Below, piece after piece: positions 1-12,064 of a DNA stretch of 64,000 nucleotides. Positions within the stretch are counted from its first letter, which is position 1. Each line of letters opens with the position of its first letter. Both the position numbers and the translations under genes were made by a program. Below the pieces are notes generated by a model. It saw only the letters and a list, made by a program, of their open reading frames with translations, searched no databases and was not told the origin of the DNA. The stretch spans positions 930,001 through 994,000 of the forward strand of contig NZ_CP025546.1 in NCBI RefSeq assembly GCF_003614435.1, read 5' to 3'. The stretch comes from Mycobacterium paragordonae (GTDB taxonomy: Bacteria > Actinomycetota > Actinomycetes > Mycobacteriales > Mycobacteriaceae).

Positions 1-260
1 CCGTCGACGATCAGCGAATAGCCGCCCGGTGCCGGCGGCGGCCACACCAGGGTGACGTTGCTGCGGTGCGCAAGGTTAGTGCGGGTGCCCCCGCCGATCA
101 GTCCGACGTCGAGCACCGCAAGGTCGCGCAGTACCGGCTCGACGGTCACCGTGTGTGCGCGGTAGTCGTCGTCGACGGTGATCAGGTAGGCGAACGGGTA
201 GCTCGGCAGGGTGTCGGCCAACCGCTGGAAGTCGACCGGTTTGCTGGTCTTTGCAGCCAT
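1..260 (-). CDS. Partial Rv0441c-like protein, probable FMN-binding split-barrel family
   Basis: The ATG is at 260 and the frame stays open to the left window edge, so only the first 86 residues are visible. The protein starts [19 protein letters not shown] and continues with a strand-rich stretch ([18 protein letters not shown], then [16 protein letters not shown]), which resembles small pyridoxamine 5'-phosphate oxidase-like flavin-binding proteins. In M. tuberculosis Rv0441c occupies this place next to PPE10, and the position supports orthology. The substrate is unknown. The C-terminal half is outside the window, so no cofactor residues can be checked. It lies 21 bp downstream of the PPE gene on the same strand and may be co-transcribed with it. 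Confidence 0.7.
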
Positions 261-281
261 GGGTCGAGGATAGGCGTGCGG

Positions 282-1778
282 CTACTCGGTGCGGATCGGG
301 AACTGGATGACCCGGCTCTGGTCGCCGGTGTCGCGATCGGCCGGCGGGTAGAAGTTCGACTTCGGGATGCCCGAGTTCGGCAGACTCGGGGCGCCGATGC
401 CGGATTCGCGACCGAGCGTGGTCCGCACTCCCGGGTCGCTGGAGCTGGGGTTGACGAAGCCTGTCACCGGGGTGCTGGCAGACGTCCGCAGGCCCGCGTT
501 GGCGGCCGCGCTGCTGGTCGGGTTCGCTGAGACGGATCCCTGGCCGGCGTCGATGGCGGCGGCCGGTGCGGATGCCGGGGCGACCACGGGTGTGCTGCTC
601 AGGCCCGAGTTCAGCGCTCCGGCCAGGCCGGAATGCAGTCCGCCGGTATTGGCCAGGGCCGAGCTGAGCAGCCCCGAACTGAGCGCGGCCGTTCCCAGCC
701 CGCCGGTGGCGTAGTGCGCCGAGTTGGCCAGTCCCGCCTCCAGGCCGGTTCCGCCCACGCCCGTGTTCTGCAAGCCCGAGCCCAGGTAGCCCATCGATCC
801 GCTGAAGCCGGTGTTCACGCTGCCCGAGTTGCCCAGGCCCGTGTTGAGGGACCCCGAGTTGCCCAGACCGAAGTTCCCGTTACCGGAGTTGAACAGGCCG
901 GTGTTGCCGGACCCGGAGTTACCGAACCCGGTATTGCCGGTGCCGGAGTTGAACCCGCCGAATCCGAACTGCTTGTCGCCGGTGAGGCCCATGCCCAGGA
1001 CGTCATTGCCGGTGTTGGCGATGCCCAGGTTGTTTGCGCCGAAGTTCCCCAGGCCCATGTTGTTGTTGCCGGTGTTGCCGATGCCCAGGTTGCCGCTGCC
1101 GCTGTTGCCGGCGCCGACGTTGCCGCTGCCGCTGTTGCCGATGCCGAAGTTGTAGTTACCGGCGTTGTTGTTGCCGATGTTGCCGCTGCCGGTGTTGCCG
1201 AAGCCGAAGTTGATGGTGCCGTTCTTGCCGATGTCGATGCCGAGGTTGCGCAGGACCTGCTGCCAGGGCGCCAGTTGAGCGGCCGCCGCCGACGCGTCGA
1301 AGTGGTAGTTCGCCATGGCTGCCACGTCCAGCGCCCACATTTGCTCGTAGGCGGATTCGGTGTCCATGATGGCCGGCCAGTTCATGCCGAAGAAGTTCGT
1401 CGAGGCCAGCATCTGCACCAGGCCGCGGTTGGCAGCCACGACCGCCGGCTGCACGGTGCTCGCCAGCGCCGTCTCGAATGCGGCAGCCGTCGCGGCGGCT
1501 TGGGTCGCCGCGCGGTCCGCTTCGACAGCCGCCGCACTGAGCCAGCTCATGTACTGGGTGGCGACGACCATCATGGCGGCAGCCGAAGCTCCCTGCCAGG
1601 ATCCGCTTGTCAATTCCTGGGTGACGGAGCTGAATGATGACACCGCTGAAGCGAGATCCTCTGCCAGACCACCCCATGCGGAGGCAGCAGAAAGTAGCGG
1701 TCCCGCACCGGGACCGGCAAGCATTAATGCCGAGTTGATCTCTGGCGGCAACCACGCGAAATGCGGGCTTGTCACCAC
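282..1778 (-). CDS. PPE10: PPE family protein, MPTR subfamily (PPE10-like)
   Basis: The 498-residue protein has an N-terminal PPE domain (residues 1-180; LPPEINSALM near residue 11, WxG-type turn GSWQGAS near residue 79) and then major polymorphic tandem repeats of the NxGxGN type from about residue 190 to 330. The tail is Ala/Ser/Pro-rich and ends VIQFPIRTE. Such proteins are secreted by the ESX-5 type VII system; PPE10 of M. marinum has been linked to capsule integrity. The start is one of two consecutive GTG codons (1778 or 1775). No PE partner gene is adjacent, which is usual for MPTR members. Position beside the Rv0441c-like gene and near sigK supports PPE10 (Rv0442c). Confidence 0.88.
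   Translation of the reverse strand: MVTSPHFAWLPPEINSALMLAGPGAGPLLSAASAWGGLAEDLASAVSSFSSVTQELTSGSWQGASAAAMMVVATQYMSWLSAAAVEADRAATQAAATAAAFETALASTVQPAVVAANRGLVQMLASTNFFGMNWPAIMDTESAYEQMWALDVAAMANYHFDASAAAAQLAPWQQVLRNLGIDIGKNGTINFGFGNTGSGNIGNNNAGNYNFGIGNSGSGNVGAGNSGSGNLGIGNTGNNNMGLGNFGANNLGIANTGNDVLGMGLTGDKQFGFGGFNSGTGNTGFGNSGSGNTGLFNSGNGNFGLGNSGSLNTGLGNSGSVNTGFSGSMGYLGSGLQNTGVGGTGLEAGLANSAHYATGGLGTAALSSGLLSSALANTGGLHSGLAGALNSGLSSTPVVAPASAPAAAIDAGQGSVSANPTSSAAANAGLRTSASTPVTGFVNPSSSDPGVRTTLGRESGIGAPSLPNSGIPKSNFYPPADRDTGDQSRVIQFPIRTE
788..1211 (-). repeat. MPTR-coding tandem repeats in the PPE gene
   Basis: About 420 bp encode repeated NxGxGN/NTGSGN pentapeptide-like units. At DNA level this appears as recurring ttgccg(g/c)tgccgctgttg-type blocks. 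The low complexity opens long spurious frames on the other strand. Confidence 0.8.
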
Positions 1779-1851
1779 CCAAACTTACCCGGCACAGCCT
1801 TTTACCGTGGGCGTATCGGGTAACCCGCTACCGTTAATTCGCAGCAGGCCG

Positions 1852-3579
1852 TCAGGCGGGAGCGGGCGCCGGTTGCCGGCCGCGGACCAGCCTCCCCGGG
1901 CGGGCCGAGGTGGGCACCCCGTTTTCGGCGATGACCTCACCCGAGACCACGGTGGCGACATAGCCCTGCGCGGTCTGATCCAGCCGGCGGCCGCCGGCGG
2001 GGAGGTCGTGGGCGATGACCGGCTTGTGCAGTCGCAGCCCGGCGTGATCGATGACGTTGAGATCGGCCTTGAAGCCGGCGGCGACGCGGCCACGGTCGGC
2101 CAGGCCGGCGATGCGGGCCGGCACCGATGTCAGTTCCCGGACCGCTTCGGCGACGCTGAACCGGCCCGATCTGCGATCGCGGGCCCAGTGGGTGAGGAAG
2201 TACGTGGAGTAGCTGGCGTCGCAGATCATCCCGTAATGAGCACCCCCGTCGCCCAGTCCGAGGACCACGTCGTCGCGGTGCAGAAGTTTGCCGACGGTGT
2301 CCAGCGAGTTGCCTTCCAGGTTGCTGGTGGCGACCAGCAGCATGGCCCGTCCGTCATCATCGAGGAGCCGGTCGTAGGCCTCCTCCATCGGGTTGACGCC
2401 GCGGGCGCGGGCCCGCGCACCGATGCTGTCGGACGGGTTCGGCTCGTAGTTCGGATTGTCGTCCAGCGGGAAGATCCAGTCCCACATCTGGGCCACGTAC
2501 AGGATCGGATGGCCCTGGCCCGGCTTGTCGGCCAGGATGCGGGCACGCACCTCGGGCTTGCGCATCTCGGCGACCCGCTCGGCCAGCGGCAGGTGCGCGA
2601 TCTCGCGGTAGCTCGGGTACAGCACGAACGGGTTGGCCGTGAGCTGGAGCCCGATGATCAGCCCGATCGGGCGCGGCAGCAGCTGCGCGGTGATATCTCC
2701 GCCGGCCGCGTTCGCCTTCTCCACCATCGTGATGGCGTCCGGCCAGGTCGGGTCCCCGGCATTGCCGACGACCAGGGTGAAGGTGACCGGCAGCCCGACG
2801 TCCTCGGCGACGTCGAACACCGTCTGCAACACGGGCTGGTAGCCCCCGGCCGGGATGTCGGGCACGAACTGCAGCAGTCCGCCGCCGCCGTCGACGACGC
2901 CCCGGGCGATCTCCTCGATCTCCTCCCGGGCCGCGTCGTAGCTGGGGATCGGTGCACCGCTCTCGGTCTTGTGGATGGTGAGCCGGGAGGAGGCGAACCC
3001 CAGCGCGCCCACCTCCATGGCTTCGGTGGCCAGTTCGCGCATCCTGGCCAGGTCGTCGGGGGTTGCGGGTTCGCGGTCGGCGCCGCGTTGGCCCATCACG
3101 TAGACGCGCAGCGGGGAATGGGGCAGGTAGGCCGCGACGTCGATGTCCCGTTTCCCGGACTCCAGCGCGTCAAGGTATTCCGGGAAGGTTTCCCAGGACC
3201 ACGGCAGGCCGTCGGTCATCACGACGCCCGGAATGTCCTCGACGCCGGCCATGACGTCGACGAGTACGTCGTGGTCCTCCTGGCGGCAGGGCGCGAAGCC
3301 GACGCCGCAGTTGCCCACGACCACCGTGGTCACCCCGTGCGCCGAGGACGGGGTCAACCGGTCCGACCAGATGGCCTGGCCGTCGTAGTGGGTGTGCAGG
3401 TCGACGAAGCCCGGAGTGACCAGCAGCCCGGTCGCGTCGATCTCCCTTGTCGCGGTCGCGCCGTTCACGGCGCCGACCGCCGCGATCAGCCCGTCTTTGA
3501 CGGCGACGTCGCCGACGTAAGGCTCACCTCCCAATCCGTCCACGATGGTGCCGTTGCGGATCAGAAGGTCGTAGGTCAT
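1852..3579 (-). CDS. N-acyl-D-amino acid deacylase-like amidohydrolase
   Basis: The 575-residue protein begins MTYDLLIRNGTIVDG and carries the metal-binding HTHYDGQ motif at about residue 62, as in the D-aminoacylase branch of the amidohydrolase superfamily. A later GDGGAHYG block near residue 445 supplies further active-site residues. The family hydrolyses N-acyl-D-amino acids or related cyclic amides in the cytoplasm; the substrate here is not predictable. It resembles Rv2913c by motif, but M. tuberculosis has no such gene at this place, so it is an extra gene relative to that genome. It is divergent from the VOC gene across 46 bp, which must hold both promoters. The ATG at 3579 fits the family N-terminus. 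Confidence 0.85.
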   Translation of the reverse strand: MTYDLLIRNGTIVDGLGGEPYVGDVAVKDGLIAAVGAVNGATATREIDATGLLVTPGFVDLHTHYDGQAIWSDRLTPSSAHGVTTVVVGNCGVGFAPCRQEDHDVLVDVMAGVEDIPGVVMTDGLPWSWETFPEYLDALESGKRDIDVAAYLPHSPLRVYVMGQRGADREPATPDDLARMRELATEAMEVGALGFASSRLTIHKTESGAPIPSYDAAREEIEEIARGVVDGGGGLLQFVPDIPAGGYQPVLQTVFDVAEDVGLPVTFTLVVGNAGDPTWPDAITMVEKANAAGGDITAQLLPRPIGLIIGLQLTANPFVLYPSYREIAHLPLAERVAEMRKPEVRARILADKPGQGHPILYVAQMWDWIFPLDDNPNYEPNPSDSIGARARARGVNPMEEAYDRLLDDDGRAMLLVATSNLEGNSLDTVGKLLHRDDVVLGLGDGGAHYGMICDASYSTYFLTHWARDRRSGRFSVAEAVRELTSVPARIAGLADRGRVAAGFKADLNVIDHAGLRLHKPVIAHDLPAGGRRLDQTAQGYVATVVSGEVIAENGVPTSARPGRLVRGRQPAPAPA

Positions 3580-3625
3580 CTAAATAATCTACGACCCTGT
3601 CGGTGGCTCGTGCCAGGATCGAGCC

Positions 3626-3997
3626 GTGATCGATCACTTCGGCATCAATTGCGCTGACTACGCGAGATCGTGGCAGTTCTACGACACCGTCCTGGGCGTG
3701 CTGGGTTACTCCCGGCAGATGGACTTCGGCGAGGCCATCGGGTACGGCCGGGACGGGCATCCGGCCTTCTGGATCGCCGACGGAACGGGCATGGGGCCGA
3801 ACCGGGAGGTTCACGTCGCGTTCCAGGCCGCCGACCAGGACGCCGTGCGTGCGTTTCACGATGCGGCCGTGGGCCTGGGCGCGGAGTCGCTGCATGCGCC
3901 GAGGCTGTGGCCCGAATACCACCCGGGCTATTTCGGCGCCTTCGTCCGCGACCCGGACGGCAACAACGTCGAAGCCGTGTTCCACGGCGCTGCGTAG
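3626..3997 (+). CDS. VOC (glyoxalase/bleomycin resistance) family protein
   Basis: This 123-residue protein has one vicinal-oxygen-chelate module: MIDHFGINCADYARSWQFY at the start, a central FWIADGTG strand and the closing FVRDPDGNNVEAV motif. The conserved His4 and the Glu in NNVEAV are candidate metal ligands. Such proteins act as small dioxygenase, isomerase or binding proteins, and the substrate cannot be inferred. The start is GTG at 3626. It is followed by the DinB gene after only 10 bp, so the two probably share a transcript. Confidence 0.8.
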   Translation: MIDHFGINCADYARSWQFYDTVLGVLGYSRQMDFGEAIGYGRDGHPAFWIADGTGMGPNREVHVAFQAADQDAVRAFHDAAVGLGAESLHAPRLWPEYHPGYFGAFVRDPDGNNVEAVFHGAA

Positions 3998-4007
3998 GGT
4001 CGAAAGC

Positions 4008-4526
4008 ATGGCAACTTCTGAAACCGCTGCCGTCCAAGAACTCCTGCGCGACGCGTTCACCCGCCTGATCGAACACGCCGGCGACGTATGCCACGGGCTG
4101 ACCGATGAGGTCGCCGACTACCGGCCGACCGCCGACGCCAACAGCATTGCCTGGCTGCTGTGGCACAGCGCGCGGGTCCAGGATCTGCAGCTGGCCGACG
4201 TGGCCGGCGTGGAACAGGTCTGGACCGGTGACGGCTGGGTGGACCGATTCAACCTGGATCTGCCGCGCAACGACACCGGTTACGGGCACGGCGCCGAACA
4301 GGTCGCCAAGGTCCGCGCCCCCGTCGACCTGCTGTTGGGCTACTACCACGCGGTGCACCTGCTCACGTTGGAGTACGTCGAGACGGTCACCCCCGACGAA
4401 CTCGCTCGCATCGTCGACACGCACTGGGATCCCCCGGTGACCGCGAGCGCGCGGCTGGTCAGCATCATCGACGACTGTGCCCAACATCTCGGCCAGGCGG
4501 CCTATCTGCGGGGGATCGCCCAGTAG
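4008..4526 (+). CDS. DinB-like (mycothiol-dependent enzyme type) protein, Rv0443-like
   Basis: The 172-residue protein is a DinB four-helix bundle. A histidine in the first helix (LIEHAGDVCHGLTDE), HSARVQ in the second and DDCAQHLGQAAYLRG near the C-terminus are spaced like the three metal-binding His of the DinB/MDMPI superfamily. Family members can bind a divalent metal and use low-molecular-weight thiols such as mycothiol. It lies at the place of Rv0443 in M. tuberculosis. The ATG at 4008 is preferred over earlier in-frame codons because those lie inside the VOC gene. Confidence 0.8.
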   Translation: MATSETAAVQELLRDAFTRLIEHAGDVCHGLTDEVADYRPTADANSIAWLLWHSARVQDLQLADVAGVEQVWTGDGWVDRFNLDLPRNDTGYGHGAEQVAKVRAPVDLLLGYYHAVHLLTLEYVETVTPDELARIVDTHWDPPVTASARLVSIIDDCAQHLGQAAYLRGIAQ

Positions 4527-4537
4527 GGTTCCAACCC

Positions 4538-5407
4538 GTGCGGTTCCTGACGACGGTGTTGTGCTGGCTGATCGCCACGGCCGGGCTGGCGGTGGCGCTG
4601 CCGGCGATGTGGGCCCAGGCGAACATCGTCGACGAGGACGGCTACAGCGAGCTGGCCGAGCAGGCGGCCCGGGATCCCGCGCTGCAGTCGGCGATGGCGT
4701 CGGAGCTCACCACCCGCGCCGTGGCGCTGATCAACGAACGCAGTGGGCGCCGCAACCCGGTCGACAGTTCGACGGTGCACGACGTGGCCGCGGCCTTCAC
4801 CGCCGGTCCGTCGTTTCCGCCGCTGTTCGCCCAGGTGAACCGGGCCGCGCACGGCTGGCTGTTCAGCGCGCCGCAGCCGGGCGGCAACGAACAGTGGGTG
4901 GTCGACGTGGCGCCGATGCTCAAGGACACCGGCATCCAGCAGCAGCTGGCCACCTATAACGTGCAGGTCCCCGCGACGCTGAAGGTCCCGCTGACGGTGC
5001 CGGTGGACCAGCCGCTACGACAGGGACAGTTTCACCGCGCCGCGGTGTGGGGACCGTGGGTCAGTATCGGTGTGGCCGCCCTGACGGCGCTTTTCGCGTT
5101 CCTGACCGTGGTTGCCGCGCGCAGCCGCGGCCGGGCGGTGACAGCTCTGGGTGTGTCGGCGCTGCTCGTCGGCGCGGCCGGCTGGGCGGGGATCGAGATG
5201 GGTGGGCGCTCCCTCAATGAGGCGCTGAACCGGACCACCGGCGACATCCGGCGGATGGCCGATGTGATGGTGGGCCATGCCGAGAGCAGCATGCACCTGT
5301 GGCTCAACCTGACGTTGCTCACCGGTGCGGCGCTGGTGGTGCTCGGTCTGCTCGCCGCCGTGCTGGGCGGTCTGTTCAAGAGAAAAAGCCGGGGCTCAGC
5401 TACTTGA
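4538..5407 (+). CDS. Membrane protein of unknown function
   Basis: This 289-residue protein has an N-terminal hydrophobic segment (about residues 4-26, possibly an uncleaved signal anchor) and an extracytoplasmic domain of about 140 residues. Three hydrophobic segments follow, near residues 170-195, 200-222 and 253-280, and the tail is basic (FKRKSRG). I do not recognise a family with a known function. It starts with GTG at 4538, 11 bp after the DinB gene. It converges on rskA with an 8-bp overlap of the two coding ends. Confidence 0.7.
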
Positions 5408-6098
5408 GGGGTAACTCGGCCAGGATCGCGCCGGTGGGTTTGGGCGATCCGGCGCCGGGCTCGACCGTGAAGGCCAGTGCCCGGCAGCTGCCGATCTCGT
5501 TGACCGTGGCCGTCGTCGTCGGCTGCACCGTCGCGGTGCCCATGGTGCCCGCGGATCTGGGGCCGTCGGCTCCGAGCAGCCACATCTGGTAGACGGTTCC
5601 ATTGGACGGTGGCGGGACATTGTTCATCACGAGCACCGCCGCGTTGCGGTCCCGTGAGAACATGACCGTGGCCTGTCCCGGGCCCAGTGGGCGGGAGACC
5701 GTCTTCATATCCGGAGCCGTGAGGACCTGCTCGGTGACCGTCGAACTCGGGTGCGGTTGTACCAGCACGCCGAGGCCGAAGCCCGCCAATCCGATTACCA
5801 CCGCCGCAGCGGCGGCGAAAACCTTTGTCCGCCAGAATGATTGACGCTGGCCGTCGCGGTGTTGCACCGCGGTGAGTACCGCGGTGCGCAGCTGGTCGGG
5901 CGGCTCGGCGACACTCGCCGAGGACAGCACTGCCAGCGTCTCGCGGACCGCGCGGACCTCATCGTGGAAGGCGGCCGCCAGGGGCGCGGGCGCGGCGGCG
6001 ACCCGTCGGTCGATCTCGACGCGCTCCGCGTCGGACACGGCGTGCAGGGCATACGGAGTCGCCAGTTCAAGGAGTTCGAAGTCGGTCGGTTCGGTCAT
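5400..6098 (-). CDS. rskA: Anti-sigma-K factor RskA
   Basis: The 232-residue length equals that of M. tuberculosis RskA (Rv0444c). The cytoplasmic N-terminal anti-sigma domain ([20 protein letters not shown], residues 1-90) should bind SigK. A single membrane segment (about residues 93-113, [20 protein letters not shown]) leads to an extracytoplasmic C-terminal RskA domain with the YQMWLLG strand. By analogy, regulated intramembrane proteolysis releases SigK. The start ATG overlaps the sigK stop (ATGA, 6095-6098), which couples their translation and keeps sigma and anti-sigma in balance. Confidence 0.95.
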
Positions 6099-6658
6099 GA
6101 GACACCCAGGCAGTTGCGCAGGCCGCGCAGCGCGTCACGCATACGCGATTTGATGGTCGACAGGTTCGCAGCCAGCCGCTGCGACACCTCGGCATAGGTG
6201 AGTCCGCCGTAGTAGGCGAGCTCGATGCACTGACGCTGGGTGTCGGTAAGCCCTTCCAGGCACTGCGCCACCCGGCGGCGTTCGTCGCCCGCTATCGCCG
6301 ACTCCGCGACGACGTCGCTGGCCGGCTCGAGGTTGGCCACGCCGTAGCGCGATTCGCGGTTGGTGCCCGCTTGCTCGCTGCGCACCCGGTCGATCGCCCG
6401 GCGGTGGGTCATGGTCAGCAGCCAGGCCAGCGCGGACCCTCTGGTCGAGTCGAACTCCGCGGCGGTCCGCCAGACTTCGAGATAGATCTCCTGGGTGGTC
6501 TCTTCGCTGTACCCGGCGTCGCGCAGCACCCGGGTCACCAGTCCGTACACCCGGGACTTCGTCTGGTCGTAGAACGCGGCGAAGGCAGCGTTGTCCCCAT
6601 GCGCGACCCGGCGCAGCAAGGCGTCCAGGTCGCTGCTGGGCTGCAGCGGTCCGGTCAT
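6095..6658 (-). CDS. sigK: ECF sigma factor SigK
   Basis: This 187-residue ECF sigma factor has region 2 (about 20-90, including [12 protein letters not shown] and the core-binding helix) and region 4 (about 130-180, [20 protein letters not shown]). It directs RNA polymerase to SigK promoters, which in M. tuberculosis drive mpt70/mpt83 and this operon itself. The start at 6658 ([15 protein letters not shown]) gives exactly the M. tuberculosis length, and in BCG strains loss of the corresponding AUG abolishes function. A longer in-frame ATG at 6706 overlaps the upstream stop as ATGA and would add 16 residues. It is the penultimate gene of the leftward SigK operon. Confidence 0.94.
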
Positions 6659-6702
6659 CGATCGGTAGCCTAAGTCAGCAACCGCCACACCCGGTACGCC
6701 GG

Positions 6703-7497
6703 TCATGACTGACGCACCTTTCTGGGTGGCCGCGGAACGAAGTAAGCGGTCCGCTCCCGGTATTCGGCGAATCCCGGCCGGCCCTTCATGTACTTCTCGG
6801 TCAGCCGCGCCCCGCTGACGTCCACCAGGAAGTAGGTCATCACCAGCGGCGAGACCGCCGTGGCCAGCGGCACCCAGCCATTGACCGTGACCAGCCACAA
6901 CCCCCACCACACGCAGGCGTCGCCGAAGTAGTTGGGGTGCCGGGTCCACGACCACAGCCCGCGGTCCATGATCACGCCGCGATGGGCGGGGTCGGATTTG
7001 AATTCGCGCAGTTGCCGGTCTCCGAGTGCTTCGAAGGTGAACCCGAGCAGCCATACCGCCACACCGAGTGCGGTGACGGCCAGCAACGGCGTGGGGGTGG
7101 GGCCGGTGACCGCCGACAGCTGCAGGGGAAAGGAGATGAACAGCGTCAGAAAGCCCTGCAGCAGGAAGACCTTGCGCACCACCTGACCTACCGACGCGCC
7201 CCGCAGCAGGTTGGCGTAGCGGCGATCTTCGCCCTGCCCGGCGGTCTTGCGGTGAATGTGCCAGCTCAGCCGCAGACCCCAGATCGAAACCAGCGCCAGC
7301 AACAGCCAGCGCCGGGACGGATCCCCGCGGCCCACCACCGCCGCCACCGCCGCCACCACGACGAAGCCGATGCCCCACGCGACGTCGACGACGTTGTAGC
7401 GGCCGATCTTGCGGCCGATCGCGAAGGTGACCGAATGCACCACGACCACCGCCAGGGTGCACGCGCCCGTCACCGCCAGGATGTTGCTCTCGTTCAC
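6703..7497 (-). CDS. DUF1295 membrane protein, Rv0446c-like
   Basis: This 264-residue polytopic protein has about seven hydrophobic segments and the DUF1295 signature WSWTRHPNYFGD near residue 195, related to steroid 5-alpha-reductase and isoprenylcysteine methyltransferase-type membrane enzymes. The reaction is not established. The GTG at 7497 is chosen because it overlaps the TGA of the preceding ufaA1 remnant (GTGA, 7494-7497), the same arrangement as at the neighbouring junctions. A slightly longer in-frame start at 7524 is less likely. The gene appears intact although its upstream neighbours are damaged. Confidence 0.85.
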   Translation of the reverse strand: MNESNILAVTGACTLAVVVVHSVTFAIGRKIGRYNVVDVAWGIGFVVVAAVAAVVGRGDPSRRWLLLALVSIWGLRLSWHIHRKTAGQGEDRRYANLLRGASVGQVVRKVFLLQGFLTLFISFPLQLSAVTGPTPTPLLAVTALGVAVWLLGFTFEALGDRQLREFKSDPAHRGVIMDRGLWSWTRHPNYFGDACVWWGLWLVTVNGWVPLATAVSPLVMTYFLVDVSGARLTEKYMKGRPGFAEYRERTAYFVPRPPRKVRQS

Positions 7498-7949
7498 CGC
7501 GGACCCCTGCGCTCGAACGCCCACCGGTCGGCGTGATGGCGACCGGACCGGAATCCCGGTTTCGGGTCAGCCGGATACGGTTGCCACATGCGCGCGGACA
7601 CCTCGTCGAATCCTAAGTGCGCCAATCGGTTACGACGCTGCAGGAAGCGCTCGCGGCACAGCCGCAGCGTCTGGGCGTAGTGCGGCCGCAGCGAGGCCGC
7701 GTCGACGGGGCGCAGGCTGTAGCGCTCGGTGATGTCGACGGTGGCCGCAGCAGACGGCAGCGGTCCGCCAGGGACAATGTACTTCCGAATCCGGGCGCGC
7801 GTATTGCGAGTGGCCGCTATCCGCTCACGCGAGGTGGTGACCGCCGGTATCGCCACTCGGTCACCGGGCCCGGACGGCACCTTCGCGGCCGCCGGCCGGC
7901 TGCCGGAACCGATTGGCGCGAAGCGTCTTTCGATGGTGCCGGCGCTCAT
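7494..7949 (-). pseudogene. ufaA1: ufaA1 remnant with large in-frame internal deletion
   Basis: UfaA1 (Rv0447c) of M. tuberculosis is a fatty acid methyltransferase/cyclopropane synthase-type enzyme of about 427 residues. Only 151 codons remain here. The first 28 (ending AAAKVPSGP) match the UfaA1 N-terminus, and from about residue 32 on (VAIPAVTTSRERIAATRN) the sequence matches the C-terminal quarter, including KYIVPGG, DAASLRPHYAQTLRL and HLGFDEV. The join is near 7854-7868, so the SAM-binding core is gone. The tail is also degraded: LCRERF replaces LWRERF, and the family-typical final motif around GFRSGYL is scrambled. The frame is open, and both ends keep 4-nt overlaps with the flanking genes, consistent with translational coupling. 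It cannot be an active methyltransferase. Confidence 0.85.
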
Positions 7950-8668
7950 TGCGCTGCCGCGGGAACTCGTCGTAACCACAGTTTGATCCCCTGAAGACGG
8001 ATGCGCGCGGCCTCCGCCAGGGGCGCCAGCGGTGACAGGAACTGCAATGCCGCGACGTGCCAGTTCGTCGCGGGAAGTCGCTCGCCGCGCAAGGTGGCGG
8101 TGAACGCGAGCCGGCGGTCCCGCAGCAGCGACACCATGACGTCGACATCGTGCTCCGGAGGTGGGGCCAGTACCAGGTAGTTCCCGTCGACCGGGTTGTA
8201 GGGCGAAACGTACAGCCGCTTGCTGACCAGCACCGGCGAATCGGCCGGCGGCAGCAGATAGACGTGGCGCCCGCCGTAGGTGTGTACTTCGGCGACTACG
8301 TGGCGTAACCGGCCGTCGCGGTCGTGGCACCAGAAGACGCTCAGCGGGTTGAAGGCGTACCCGAAAACGCGTGCCTGCAGCAACGCGGTGACCCGGCCGT
8401 CGGGCATGGCGGTGTCGTGCTGGGCGAAGAACCTTTCCAGCCGGCGGCGCAGCTGGTCGGAGGTGTCGAGTCGCGCGAAAGGCCTTAACCACCAGGGCAG
8501 TTCGGGGAGATGGTCGATGTCGACGTGCCAGCTACAGCTGCGGTAACGCAACGAATGCTGCTCGGGAACCTGCCGGCAGTGGCTGATCGTGGTGCGGTAG
8601 ATCGTCGGCGTCAGCGCGGCGACCCCGCCGCCGATGAGCGCTACCGATCCTCCGTGTTGTGCCTGCAC
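7946..8668 (-). CDS. DUF1365 protein (Rv0448c-like) with an apparent Rv0449c-derived N-terminus
   Basis: The 240-residue product is a DUF1365 protein from about residue 17 on (LTPTIYRTTISHCRQVPEQ, LPWWLRPFAR, RVFGYAFNPLSVFWCHD). The preceding residues GGSVALIGGGVAAL look instead like the dinucleotide-binding start of an FAD-dependent oxidoreductase. In M. tuberculosis that enzyme (Rv0449c) lies directly upstream of Rv0448c and is otherwise missing here. There is no ATG or GTG at the expected DUF1365 start, so translation must begin at the GTG at 8668. I infer an in-frame deletion that fused the two genes. Function is unknown; in M. tuberculosis the gene belongs to the SigK regulon. Confidence 0.8.
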   Translation of the reverse strand: MQAQHGGSVALIGGGVAALTPTIYRTTISHCRQVPEQHSLRYRSCSWHVDIDHLPELPWWLRPFARLDTSDQLRRRLERFFAQHDTAMPDGRVTALLQARVFGYAFNPLSVFWCHDRDGRLRHVVAEVHTYGGRHVYLLPPADSPVLVSKRLYVSPYNPVDGNYLVLAPPPEHDVDVMVSLLRDRRLAFTATLRGERLPATNWHVAALQFLSPLAPLAEAARIRLQGIKLWLRRVPAAAQ

Positions 8669-8675
8669 ATCTATT

Positions 8676-8702
8676 ATTCGGAGCGCCGTGCCGGACGGAT
8701 GG
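8676..8702 (-). promoter_or_regulatory. SigK-type promoter of the leftward operon
   Basis: On the minus strand CCATCC (8697-8702) and CCGAAT (8676-8681) are separated by 15 bp, resembling the -35/-10 pair described for mycobacterial SigK promoters. The GTG start at 8668 lies 7 nt past the -10 box, so the message would be leaderless. This is the expected place for the autoregulated promoter of the operon that ends in sigK-rskA. Confidence 0.65.
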
Positions 8703-8738
8703 CCCGCGCGGACTGCTATGCGGGATCGGCGCTCGGGA

Positions 8739-11645
8739 TCAGCGCTCGGCGCTCAGCGCCGGAGACCTGTCGGTGGCCGGCTCCTGGCGGGGGAGCCGGG
8801 GGCTGCGGCCCGGACGGGACCGCACCCGGATGGGCCACCAGAACCAGCGGCCCAGCAACGCCGCGATCGAGGGCGTCATGAACGCCCGCACGATCAGCGT
8901 GTCGAACAACAGACCGAGACCGATCGTGGTGCCCACCTGTCCGATCATCCGGGCGTCGCCGATGATCATGGACGCCATCGTGAAGGCGAAGACCAGGCCG
9001 GCGTTGGTCACGACCTTGCCGGTCCCGCCCATCGAACGGATGATGCCGGTATTGAGGCCGGCATAGATCTCCTGTTTGAACCGGGACACCAGCAGCAGGT
9101 TGTAGTCAGATCCCACGGCCAACAGCACGATCACGGACATCGCGAGCACCAGCCAGTGCAGCGGAACGCCGAAGATGTGCTGCCACACCAGGACTGACAG
9201 GCCGAACGAGGCGCCCAGCGACAGTGCGACCGTTCCGACGATCACCGCCGCCGCCACGAAAGCCCGGGTCAGGATCAGCATGATGATGAAGATCAGGCAC
9301 AGCGACGAGATGCCGGCGATCACCAGGTCCCACTTGGCGCCTTCGGAGATGTCCTTGACGATGGCGCCCATTCCGGAGACATAGATCTTGGAGTCTTCCA
9401 GCGGGGTGCCCTTGAGCGATTCCTCGGCCGCCGTCTGGATTTTGCCGATGCTCGCGATGCCCTCGGCGGAGGCCGGGTCCCCCCGATGCAGGATGATGAA
9501 CCGCGCCGCGTGCCCGTCGGCGGACAGGAAGTTCTTCATGGCGCGCTTGAAGTCGGAGTTCTTGAACACCTCCGGCGGCAGGTAGAACGAGTCGTCGTTC
9601 TTGGCGGCGTCGAAGGCGTGGCCCATCGCCGTCGCGTTGTCGCTCATCTCGTCCATCTGCTGGAAGATGCCGGACATGGTGCTGTGCATGCTCAGCATCA
9701 TCGTTCGCATGCTGACCATGGTTTCGATCATGGGCGGGAAGGTTGCGATCATCTGCGGCATCAGCACGTCGAGTTGCTTGATGTCGCCCACCAGGACGTC
9801 CAACTTCTCGTCGATCTGGTCAATACCGTCGAGCGCGTCGAACACCGACCGCAACGACCAACAGGCGGGGATGTCGTAGCAGTGTTTCTCCCAATAGAAA
9901 TAGGAGCGGATCGGCCGGAAGAAGTCGTCGAAGTTGGCGAGTTTGTCGCGCAGCTCGCGGGTGATCTGCTGCATCTCCTCGGTGTCGCCCACCATCTTGT
10001 GGGTGACCCCGACGAGCTGGGACATCAGGCCGTACATCCGCTGCATGAGCGCGATAGTCTTGCTCATCTCGTCGGCCTGCTTGAGCATGTCGTCCATCCG
10101 GTCGCGCTGGTACTTCATGGTCTGCATCTGACCGGCGCTCTGCATGCTCATCTGGAACGGAATCGACGTGTGGTCCATCGCGGTGCCGTCCGGCCGGGTG
10201 ATGGCCTGGACGCGGGATATCCCGGGCACCCGGAAGATGCCCTTGGCCAGCTTGTCCAGGATCAGGAAGTCAGCCGGATTCCGCATGTCGTGATCCGACT
10301 CGATCATCAGGATCTCCGGCTTCATCCGGGCCTGGGAGAAGTGCCGGTCCGCGACGACGAAGCCCTGGTTGGCCGGGATGAAGCTGGGCAGGTAGGCCCG
10401 GTCGTCATAGCTGGGCTTGTAGCCGGGCAGGGTGAGCAGGCCGATCAGGGCGATCACGCACGTGACGGCGAGGATCGGCAGCGGCCAGCGCACGACCGCC
10501 GTTCCGACCCGGCGCCACCCCCGCACCGACAGCACCCGCTTGGGGTCGAACACACCGAACCGGCTGCCGACGACGAGCACGGCCGGTCCCAGCGTCAGCG
10601 CGACCAGAACCGCCACCAGCATGCCGACCGCGCAGGGGATGCCCAGCGTCTGGAAGTACGGCATTCGGGCGAACCCGAGACACAGCGTCGCGCCCGCGAT
10701 CGTCAGACCGGATCCCAGAATGACGTGGGCGGTGCCGTGATACATCGTGTAGAAGGCGGACTCCCGGTCCTCCCCGGCCTGACGCGCCTCCTGATATCGG
10801 CCGATGATGAAGATCCCGTAGTCGGTTCCCGCCGCTATCGCGAGCGACGTGAGCAGGCTGACGGCGAAGGTCGACAACCCGATCAGCGCGTTGCTCCCGA
10901 GGATGGCGACGGCACCGCGTGCCGCACTCAGTTCGATCCCGACGGTGACCAGCAGCAGCAGCACCGTCAGCGGCGATCGATAGATGAACATCAGCATGCA
11001 CAGGATCACCACGATCGTGGTGATGGTGATCTTGGCCATCGATCTGTCGCCGCTGTGCTGCAGGTCTGCGGCCAGTGCCGAAGCCCCGGTGACGTAGGCC
11101 TTGAGCCCGGGCGGCGGTGGGGTGGCGTCCACGATCTTGCGGACGGCCTCGACGGATTCGTTGGCCAGCGGTTCACCCTGGTTGCCGGCGAGGTTCAACT
11201 GAACCGTGACGGCCTTGCCGTCGTTGCTCTGCGCGCCCGCCGCGGTCAGGGGGTCGCCCCAGAAATCCTGGATGCTCAGCACGTGCTTGTCGGCCCGCAG
11301 TTTGCGGATCAGGCCGTCGTAGTAACGATGCGCCGCGTCGCCGAGCGGCTGCTCGCTCTCCAGCACGATCATCGCGACGCTGTCGGTCTCCCCTTCCTTG
11401 AAGACCTGGCTGATCCGTTTGAGCGCGACGAACGACGGAGCGTCCTTGGGGCTCAGGGAAACCGAACGCTGCTGCCCGACGATCTCCAGGGACGGAACGA
11501 GCACGCTGAGCAGCACGACGACCAGCACCCAGAACAGGATGATCGGCACCGCGAAGGCATGGATCATCCGCGGGATGAACGGGCGGTGGGGTGCGGGCTC
11601 GACGGCGGGGCTGTCTCGGCGATCCTCGGTGTAGGTGGTACTCAC
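8739..11645 (-). CDS. mmpL4: RND-family transporter MmpL4
   Basis: The 968-residue protein has the MmpL layout of twelve membrane segments with two large periplasmic loops. The proton-relay Asp-Tyr pairs are visible in TDYGIF (about residue 272) and SDYNLL (about residue 845). The second loop holds coiled-coil-like helices rich in Met (about 470-590). In M. tuberculosis MmpL4 with MmpS4 exports mycobactin and carboxymycobactin. GTG at 11645 is chosen over an upstream codon because it overlaps the mmpS4 stop (GTGA, 11642-11645) and gives the M. tuberculosis length within one residue. It sits beside the SigK operon exactly as Rv0450c does. Confidence 0.93.
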
Positions 11646-12064
11646 GCGGACTTGACCAGACAGAAGGTAAAAGCGTTGACCTCGTTGGAGACTCGCTCCG
11701 ATTTGACCACGTCGTCGATCAGGATGCGGCACCCGATGCTGTCCCCGTCACCCTGGGCCATCAGGTTGCCGACCATCGCGGCCTTGTTCGTGCTGATGTG
11801 CAGCGACCAGGGCAGCGGGGCGTTGTCCACGCGCTGCGGATCGGCGTTGACGTCGAAGTAGCTGATGTCGGCAACCGTGCCCGCCGGACCGAACACCTCG
11901 TACGTGATTCGCTTGGGGTTGAACGGCTCTGGGTTCTTGAGGTTGCTGTCCGCGTACGATGCCCGCTTCTCCGAGCCGAAGTAGCCGTGGACCCGGTTCA
12001 CGATGAAAGCGCCGGTGACCAACACCGCCAGAATGACGAGTGGAATCCACACGCGCGACAGCAC
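11642..12064 (-). CDS. mmpS4: MmpS4, membrane accessory protein of MmpL4
   Basis: This 140-residue protein has one N-terminal membrane anchor (about residues 5-23) and a periplasmic beta-sandwich MmpS domain with [20 protein letters not shown] and the closing CLVKSA. The length equals M. tuberculosis MmpS4. It forms the accessory subunit of the siderophore exporter. It is first in a two-gene leftward operon, and an IdeR-like box lies 122 bp upstream, which fits iron-repressed expression. Confidence 0.93.

Follow-up and report, generated by a model that had tools for sequence, protein, structure and literature searches.

In-frame fusion of the Rv0449c start to a DUF1365 gene behind a SigK-type promoter in Mycobacterium paragordonae

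Layout of the operon and the fused reading frame

In the window, the whole 64,000-nucleotide stretch of DNA analysed here, we found a 240-aa open reading frame (8668–7946, minus strand) in which a GTG start and the first 19 codons of an Rv0449c-type gene run in frame into a complete DUF1365 gene. The four nearest relatives (L046, in genome G006, and L047, L048 and L049) carry an intact Rv0449c of 429–431 aa between the same promoter boxes and DUF1365, indicating that a deletion kept the promoter and start of Rv0449c. We consider it likely that this fusion is one case of a repeated pruning: in an autoregulated SigK operon with overlapping genes and a probably leaderless message, deletions survive if they keep promoter, start and frame.

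The window comes from Mycobacterium paragordonae (genome G000, NCBI RefSeq GCF_003614435.1), rated 100% complete in 5 contigs. Its minus strand reads, in order, mmpL, SigK-type boxes, the 240-aa frame, a ufaA1 remnant, DUF1295, sigK and rskA, such that a SigK-type box heads an operon that ends in sigK-rskA:

8739..11732, minus strand: mmpL, the intact flank upstream of the deletion (Pfam MMPL; 96% identical to the L046 MmpL)
8676..8702, minus strand: SigK-type promoter, CCATCC-N15-CCGAAT, assigned by sequence; equal spacing in intact relatives where found
8612..8668, minus strand: opening 19 codons of the former Rv0449c gene (UfaD-like FAD oxidoreductase), beginning with GTG; predicted leaderless start
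8610..8615, minus strand: GCTGAC, the 6-bp repeat on which the join lies, found in both parent genes of L046
7946..8611, minus strand: DUF1365 body (UfaO-type, Rv0448c orthologue; Pfam PF07103), native start codon lost and native stop kept
7494..7949, minus strand: ufaA1 (Rv0447c) remnant, 151 aa, with native start and stop and an in-frame internal deletion that took most of the methyltransferase (Pfam CMAS, partial)
6703..7497, minus strand: DUF1295 gene (Rv0446c orthologue; Pfam PF06966), its GTG overlapping the ufaA1 stop
6095..6706, minus strand: sigK, 203 aa, with an ATGA overlap with the DUF1295 stop (98% identical to the L046 SigK)
5400..6098, minus strand: rskA, anti-sigma factor, 232 aa (Pfam RskA_N and RskA_C)

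The reading frames of DUF1295 (whose program-listed frame begins further upstream, at 7524), sigK and rskA are open. Stop and start share 4 nt, as ATGA or GTGA, at the DUF1365/ufaA1, ufaA1/DUF1295, DUF1295/sigK and sigK/rskA junctions.

Residues 23–237 of the fused protein match Pfam DUF1365 (PF07103; E = 3.2e-51, 174.7 bits against a cut-off of 25, profile positions 1–229 of 235), and its DUF1365 is 81% identical to that of L046. Residues 1–19, VQAQHGGSVALIGGGVAAL, align to the N-terminus of the intact L046 Rv0449c orthologue, VQAPDGRSVAVIGSGVAGL, with a score reached by none of 20,000 peptide shuffles; at the DNA level, 53 of 59 nt of this start are identical. The GTG at 8668 lies 7 nt behind the boxes (CCATCC at 8702–8697, CCGAAT at 8681–8676, spacer 15). 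At the protein and DNA levels, and by its place relative to the promoter, the segment thus agrees with what a preliminary description had proposed, namely that a dinucleotide-binding segment from the start of Rv0449c precedes a DUF1365 gene lacking its usual start codon, in a frame that begins just behind these boxes. The DUF1365 genes of L046–L049 all begin with MLTPAIYRT, a start missing in the window, and none opens with the GGSVALIGGG residues of the fusion. The reading of fusion, promoter and deletion holds. To it we add the repeat common to both parent genes, copies of the join from independent sources, the ufaA1 deletions that keep the frame and a broader pattern of pruning, all described below.

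The remainder of Rv0449c is gone from this genome. A search of G000 found no orthologue elsewhere (the best of 3 matches has E = 4.9e-5 and 27% identity), and we therefore rejected a second copy. Across 396 genomes of the genus, with four candidates scored per genome, 137 had an Rv0449c match at E = 1e-20, and G000 was not among them. Pfam at E = 0.001 reported DUF1365 alone in the window protein, with Amino_oxidase and NAD_binding_8 absent; the L046 Rv0449c carries both. The predicted model of the fused protein has a mean pLDDT of 80.8 and a pTM of 0.79, with pLDDT below 50 for residues 1–15. We also rejected the idea that the Rossmann-motif remnant is a working FAD site, as it comprises 19 residues without a Pfam match, the first 15 of them predicted to be disordered, and that DUF1365 uses an alternative native start, as the next in-frame start triplet is a TTG at residue 40.

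A short repeat offers a route to this arrangement. In L046, GCTGAC occurs at nt 54–59 of Rv0449c and again at nt 3–8 of DUF1365, and loss of one copy with the intervening DNA from an L046-like locus yields the arrangement of the window. Such a deletion (about 1.24 kb; 1,238 bp as measured on L046) would have removed the DUF1365 start codon and Rv0449c from about codon 20 to its end, and thereby placed DUF1365 in frame behind the retained SigK promoter and Rv0449c start. Comparing the Rv0449c start (150 nt) with the DUF1365 start region (120 nt), we counted 13 repeats of at least 6 bp, five of them frame-matched.

Other copies of the join and their origin

The same join, on GCTGAC, is present in M. 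gordonae CTRI 14-8773 (L031), whose mmpL, DUF1295, sigK and rskA share 97–99% DNA identity with the intact L046. Among the best 120 of 1306 protein matches, the fused start also appears in three database proteins, two flagged by a motif script and one, P0005, with a variant motif recognised by eye. P0002 and P0005 derive from other sources than the window genome; P0001, representing 26 members of a cluster without a source label, is 98% identical to the window protein yet a different sequence. Within the 396 genus genomes, a set to which the L031 genome does not belong, a degenerate join pattern (at most 3 mismatches) occurs in G000 only. That the join is an assembly or sequencing artefact is very unlikely, indeed close to negligible, given its presence in the independent L031 genome and in P0001, P0002 and P0005, as well as the completeness rating of G000.

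Whether these copies descend from one event or two is less clear-cut, and we lean towards two. A single fusion, arising in an ancestor or in a lineage outside the sample and passed to M. gordonae CTRI 14-8773 through recombination, would account for the identical GCTGAC site in the window and L031, and the protein tree is compatible with the five fused rows as one clade (p-AU 0.37) while weakly disfavouring a clade of just L046 and the L031 group (p-AU 0.043). In line with such an exchange, the L031–L046 dS is 0.26 in DUF1365 versus 0.035–0.086 in the flanking genes, an excess from which we conclude that recombination probably touched the L031 DUF1365. However, the DUF1365 DNA tree pairs L031 with L046 (97/95) and rejects window plus L031 (p-AU 0.012), the same dS of 0.26 is exceeded by that between L031 and the window (0.51), and up to the join L031 matches L046 at 57 of 59 nt and the window at 51. 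Informative DNA sites in DUF1365 number 17 for L031+L046, 6 for window+L031 and 5 for window+L046, and the protein tree with the five fused rows requires two changes. We thus regard a single origin as unlikely, though deserving some weight. Within L031, positions 5058–5850, which cover DUF1365 and the beginning of the ufaA1 remnant, differ from L046 much more than their flanks do and seem to be a tract exchanged by recombination.

Tests for constraint on DUF1365 and the ufaA1 remnant

Deletions within ufaA1 accompany the fusion in both genomes. Among six gordonae-group loci (window, L031 and L046–L049), three carry an internal ufaA1 deletion, and all three deletions are in frame, running from native start to native stop with different end points (151 aa in the window, 80 aa in L031, 125 aa in L049). 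L046–L048 have a full ufaA1, and L049 retains Rv0449c despite its ufaA1 deletion. In the window remnant, Pfam finds positions 161–267 of the 273 of CMAS and no complete CMAS or methyltransferase domain, compared with positions 4–273 plus Methyltransf domains in L046. The preliminary description had stated that the operon lost both of its recognisable enzymes and kept sigK-rskA, DUF1295 and DUF1365. This is correct for Rv0449c, for the greater part of ufaA1 and for the four genes kept; it needs amending in that the C-terminal part of ufaA1 persists in frame and that DUF1365 itself belongs to an enzyme family, UfaO, according to one study (PMC7380195). As a separate observation, L049 (G047; 4880–5257, minus strand), where ufaA1 has its in-frame deletion and Rv0449c and DUF1365 are open, shows raised nonsynonymous change in DUF1365.

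The DUF1365 gene and the ufaA1 remnant of the window differ in how they have changed. Between window and L046, dN/dS is 0.165 for DUF1365 versus 0.82 for the ufaA1 part. Private changes in the window DUF1365 (23 nonsynonymous, 22 synonymous) lie below what neutral simulation gives in each of six settings (P 0.0005–0.044), and those in the ufaA1 remnant fit neutrality (P 0.19–0.79, six settings), although the remnant is free of stops, an outcome with a chance of 0.04–0.10. The window DUF1365 thus shows mild amino-acid constraint, with none detectable on its ufaA1 remnant. The private ratio is 0.36 in the window and 0.54 in L031, and 0.10, 0.12, 0.30 and 0.40 in L047, L048, L046 and L049, respectively; L046 and L049, both with an intact Rv0449c, lie close to the window. 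Part of the window branch may be older than the fusion.

These values bear on a reading in which the operon became useless after losing Rv0449c and ufaA1, and the fused DUF1365 is a decaying relic whose open frame reflects luck or youth. The private changes of the L031 DUF1365 (22 nonsynonymous, 14 synonymous) are indeed consistent with neutral simulation in six settings (P 0.075–0.46), the chances of finding no stop in the window and L031 genes, at 0.15–0.32, are not small, and nonsynonymous private changes in window plus L031 exceed those in L046–L048 (p 0.002; less clear with L049 included, p 0.04). Of 46 near-invariant columns, 6 are changed in the window, 3 in L031 and 12–17 in L104, L106, L109 and L110. 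These columns were set by 34 other rows after the degraded locus L146 was dropped, and the worst of these rows changes 5 and keeps 41, against 40 kept by the window; outside them, the window has lost the N of EVHNTYGG. Two of the defining rows, L158 and L161, change 0 and 1 of the 46. The relic reading has against it the contrast between DUF1365 and the ufaA1 remnant on the window branch and the ratios within two further genome pairs, G108–G211 (dN/dS 0.20) and G010–G367 (0.42), both of which reject neutrality and bear on fused genes on the assumption that each pair inherited its fusion. We judge decay to be rather improbable.

Probable leaderless start and proposed pruning of the SigK operon

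Among the 40 rows with a start 6–8 nt from the -10 box, the distance from box to start codon is 7 nt in 39, and L157 is the exception with 8 nt. Offsets were tried in the order 7, 8 and 6 nt; L040, L148 and L154 have box matches without a start, and the L155 box is probably a chance match, since its frame runs past the sigK start. A distance of 7 nt suits a leaderless transcript, and the window transcript is probably leaderless, with its predicted start at the GTG at 8668. Leaderless initiation in mycobacteria requires an ATG or GTG at the 5′ end of the message, and such a codon is enough for it (PMC4633059).

From this layout we infer that the window promoter depends on SigK, which would transcribe a leaderless message beginning at the GTG. 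With such a message, the Rv0449c start would be the ribosome entry point to the operon. Its product would be DUF1365 bearing a short tail for which disorder is predicted, and translation would continue, coupled across the 4-nt stop/start overlaps, into the ufaA1 remnant, DUF1295, sigK and rskA. In M. tuberculosis, sigK controls its own expression through the Rv0449c promoter, Rv0449cp (PMC7509140). The same paper mentions a putative further promoter immediately upstream of sigK, which would weaken the argument for coupling. A deletion sparing promoter, start and frame would keep both DUF1365 and the sigK-rskA feedback loop, and the selective reason would be that such deletions keep the autoregulated operon working, which would explain joins in several lineages.

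Similar joins in relatives suggest that a stress-controlled operon can lose enzymes yet keep its ribosome entry point. An RskA match is present in 312 of the 396 genus genomes; from the upper part of this match list, taken in order rather than at random and passing over G005, we surveyed 60 regions with rskA and without an Rv0449c match; the counts are small. In each of the 14 loci that have a box and DUF1365 and lack Rv0449c, a single frame stays open from the start that follows the box to the end of DUF1365. Six of them, in four groups, begin like Rv0449c: the window, L031, L104, L106, L109 and L110, the likeness in the last four consisting of 3–6 residues and position. Genomes G108/G211 and G010/G367 share with the window a frame that starts 7 nt after the box and continues into DUF1365. 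In them sigK-rskA come next, and MQQT/MQQS begins like the Rv0449c of L054/L057. Unlike in the window, only about 5 or 25 residues precede DUF1365. From position and these 3–6 residues, the starts may derive from Rv0449c; ufaA1 and DUF1295 were not found in the regions retrieved from these genomes. In G007, the leading frame has shrunk to 30 aa through two deletions relative to G108 (360 and 222 nt, summing to a multiple of 3); its start and stop are unchanged, as is the spacing to sigK. A further eight, more distant loci (L147, L149, L151, L157–L159, L161 and L162) resemble the window in having a SigK-type box, DUF1365 as the first gene behind it and then sigK-rskA; they differ in that nothing of an Rv0449c start can be seen at their N-termini, and the 137 genomes with an Rv0449c match include none of theirs.

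Not every locus has kept its frame. The frame from the box is a non-fused stub in L072, L105, L135 and L139 and enters sigK out of frame in L111; L119, L121, L126 and L146 have broken genes and no detected SigK box. Keeping the DUF1365 frame could also reflect only the need for the DUF1365 protein. A stronger proposal than pruning is that the operon is selected as a translational relay: with a leaderless message and overlapping genes, no break in the frame can be tolerated between the first codon and sigK, enzymes being deletable only in frame, down to the 30-codon leader of G007, and DUF1365 has a SigK-linked role without UfaD or UfaM. We put this forward tentatively, as a possibility that is on balance somewhat doubtful.

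Several other arrangements came to light in these searches. At L073 (G163, 4482–6082), Rv0449c changes frame near residue 115 and runs in frame into rskA; sigK was not found at this locus, and as the genome is a draft of about 450 contigs, this is possibly an assembly fault. A DipZ-like gene starts 7 nt behind a SigK-type box, before sigK or DUF1295, in L112, L113, L114, L137 and L140; the L113 protein (561 aa) has DsbD_TM and thioredoxin-like domains, and the others were assigned by a similar N-terminus. In L115, L116, L118, L120, L122–L125, L128, L129, L131–L133 and L136, no SigK-type box was detected before sigK, and one lies shortly downstream of rskA. Elsewhere in the window genome, G000:C1:2298464-2301749 holds two fasciclin genes, presumably of MPT83/MPT70 type, and one exact SigK-type box; the matching place in G006 and G396 has two.

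We found no description of the fusion in the literature searched; an earlier one may exist in work on the evolution of the SigK regulon, on which the key paper is that of Veyrier from 2008. The M. tuberculosis SigK operon has the order Rv0449c-Rv0448c-ufaA1-Rv0446c-sigK-rskA. The window resembles it in gene order, promoter type, DUF1295, sigK and rskA, and departs from it in that Rv0449c is cut to 19 codons fused to DUF1365 and ufaA1 is internally deleted. Pruning of this kind offers a testable rule for the shrinkage of operons with a leaderless, overlapping message, and examples from nature in which DUF1365 occurs apart from the enzymes presumed to be its partners in a pathway. In Rhodobacter, as PMC7380195 describes, the DUF1365 protein UfaO belongs to the furan fatty acid pathway UfaM-UfaD-UfaO and works on what is made by UfaM and UfaD, enzymes of the same types as ufaA1 and Rv0449c, respectively. 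In contrast to that pathway, the window operon has lost both the UfaD and UfaM partners, and the persistence of DUF1365 without these counterparts suggests that it may have another substrate or role.
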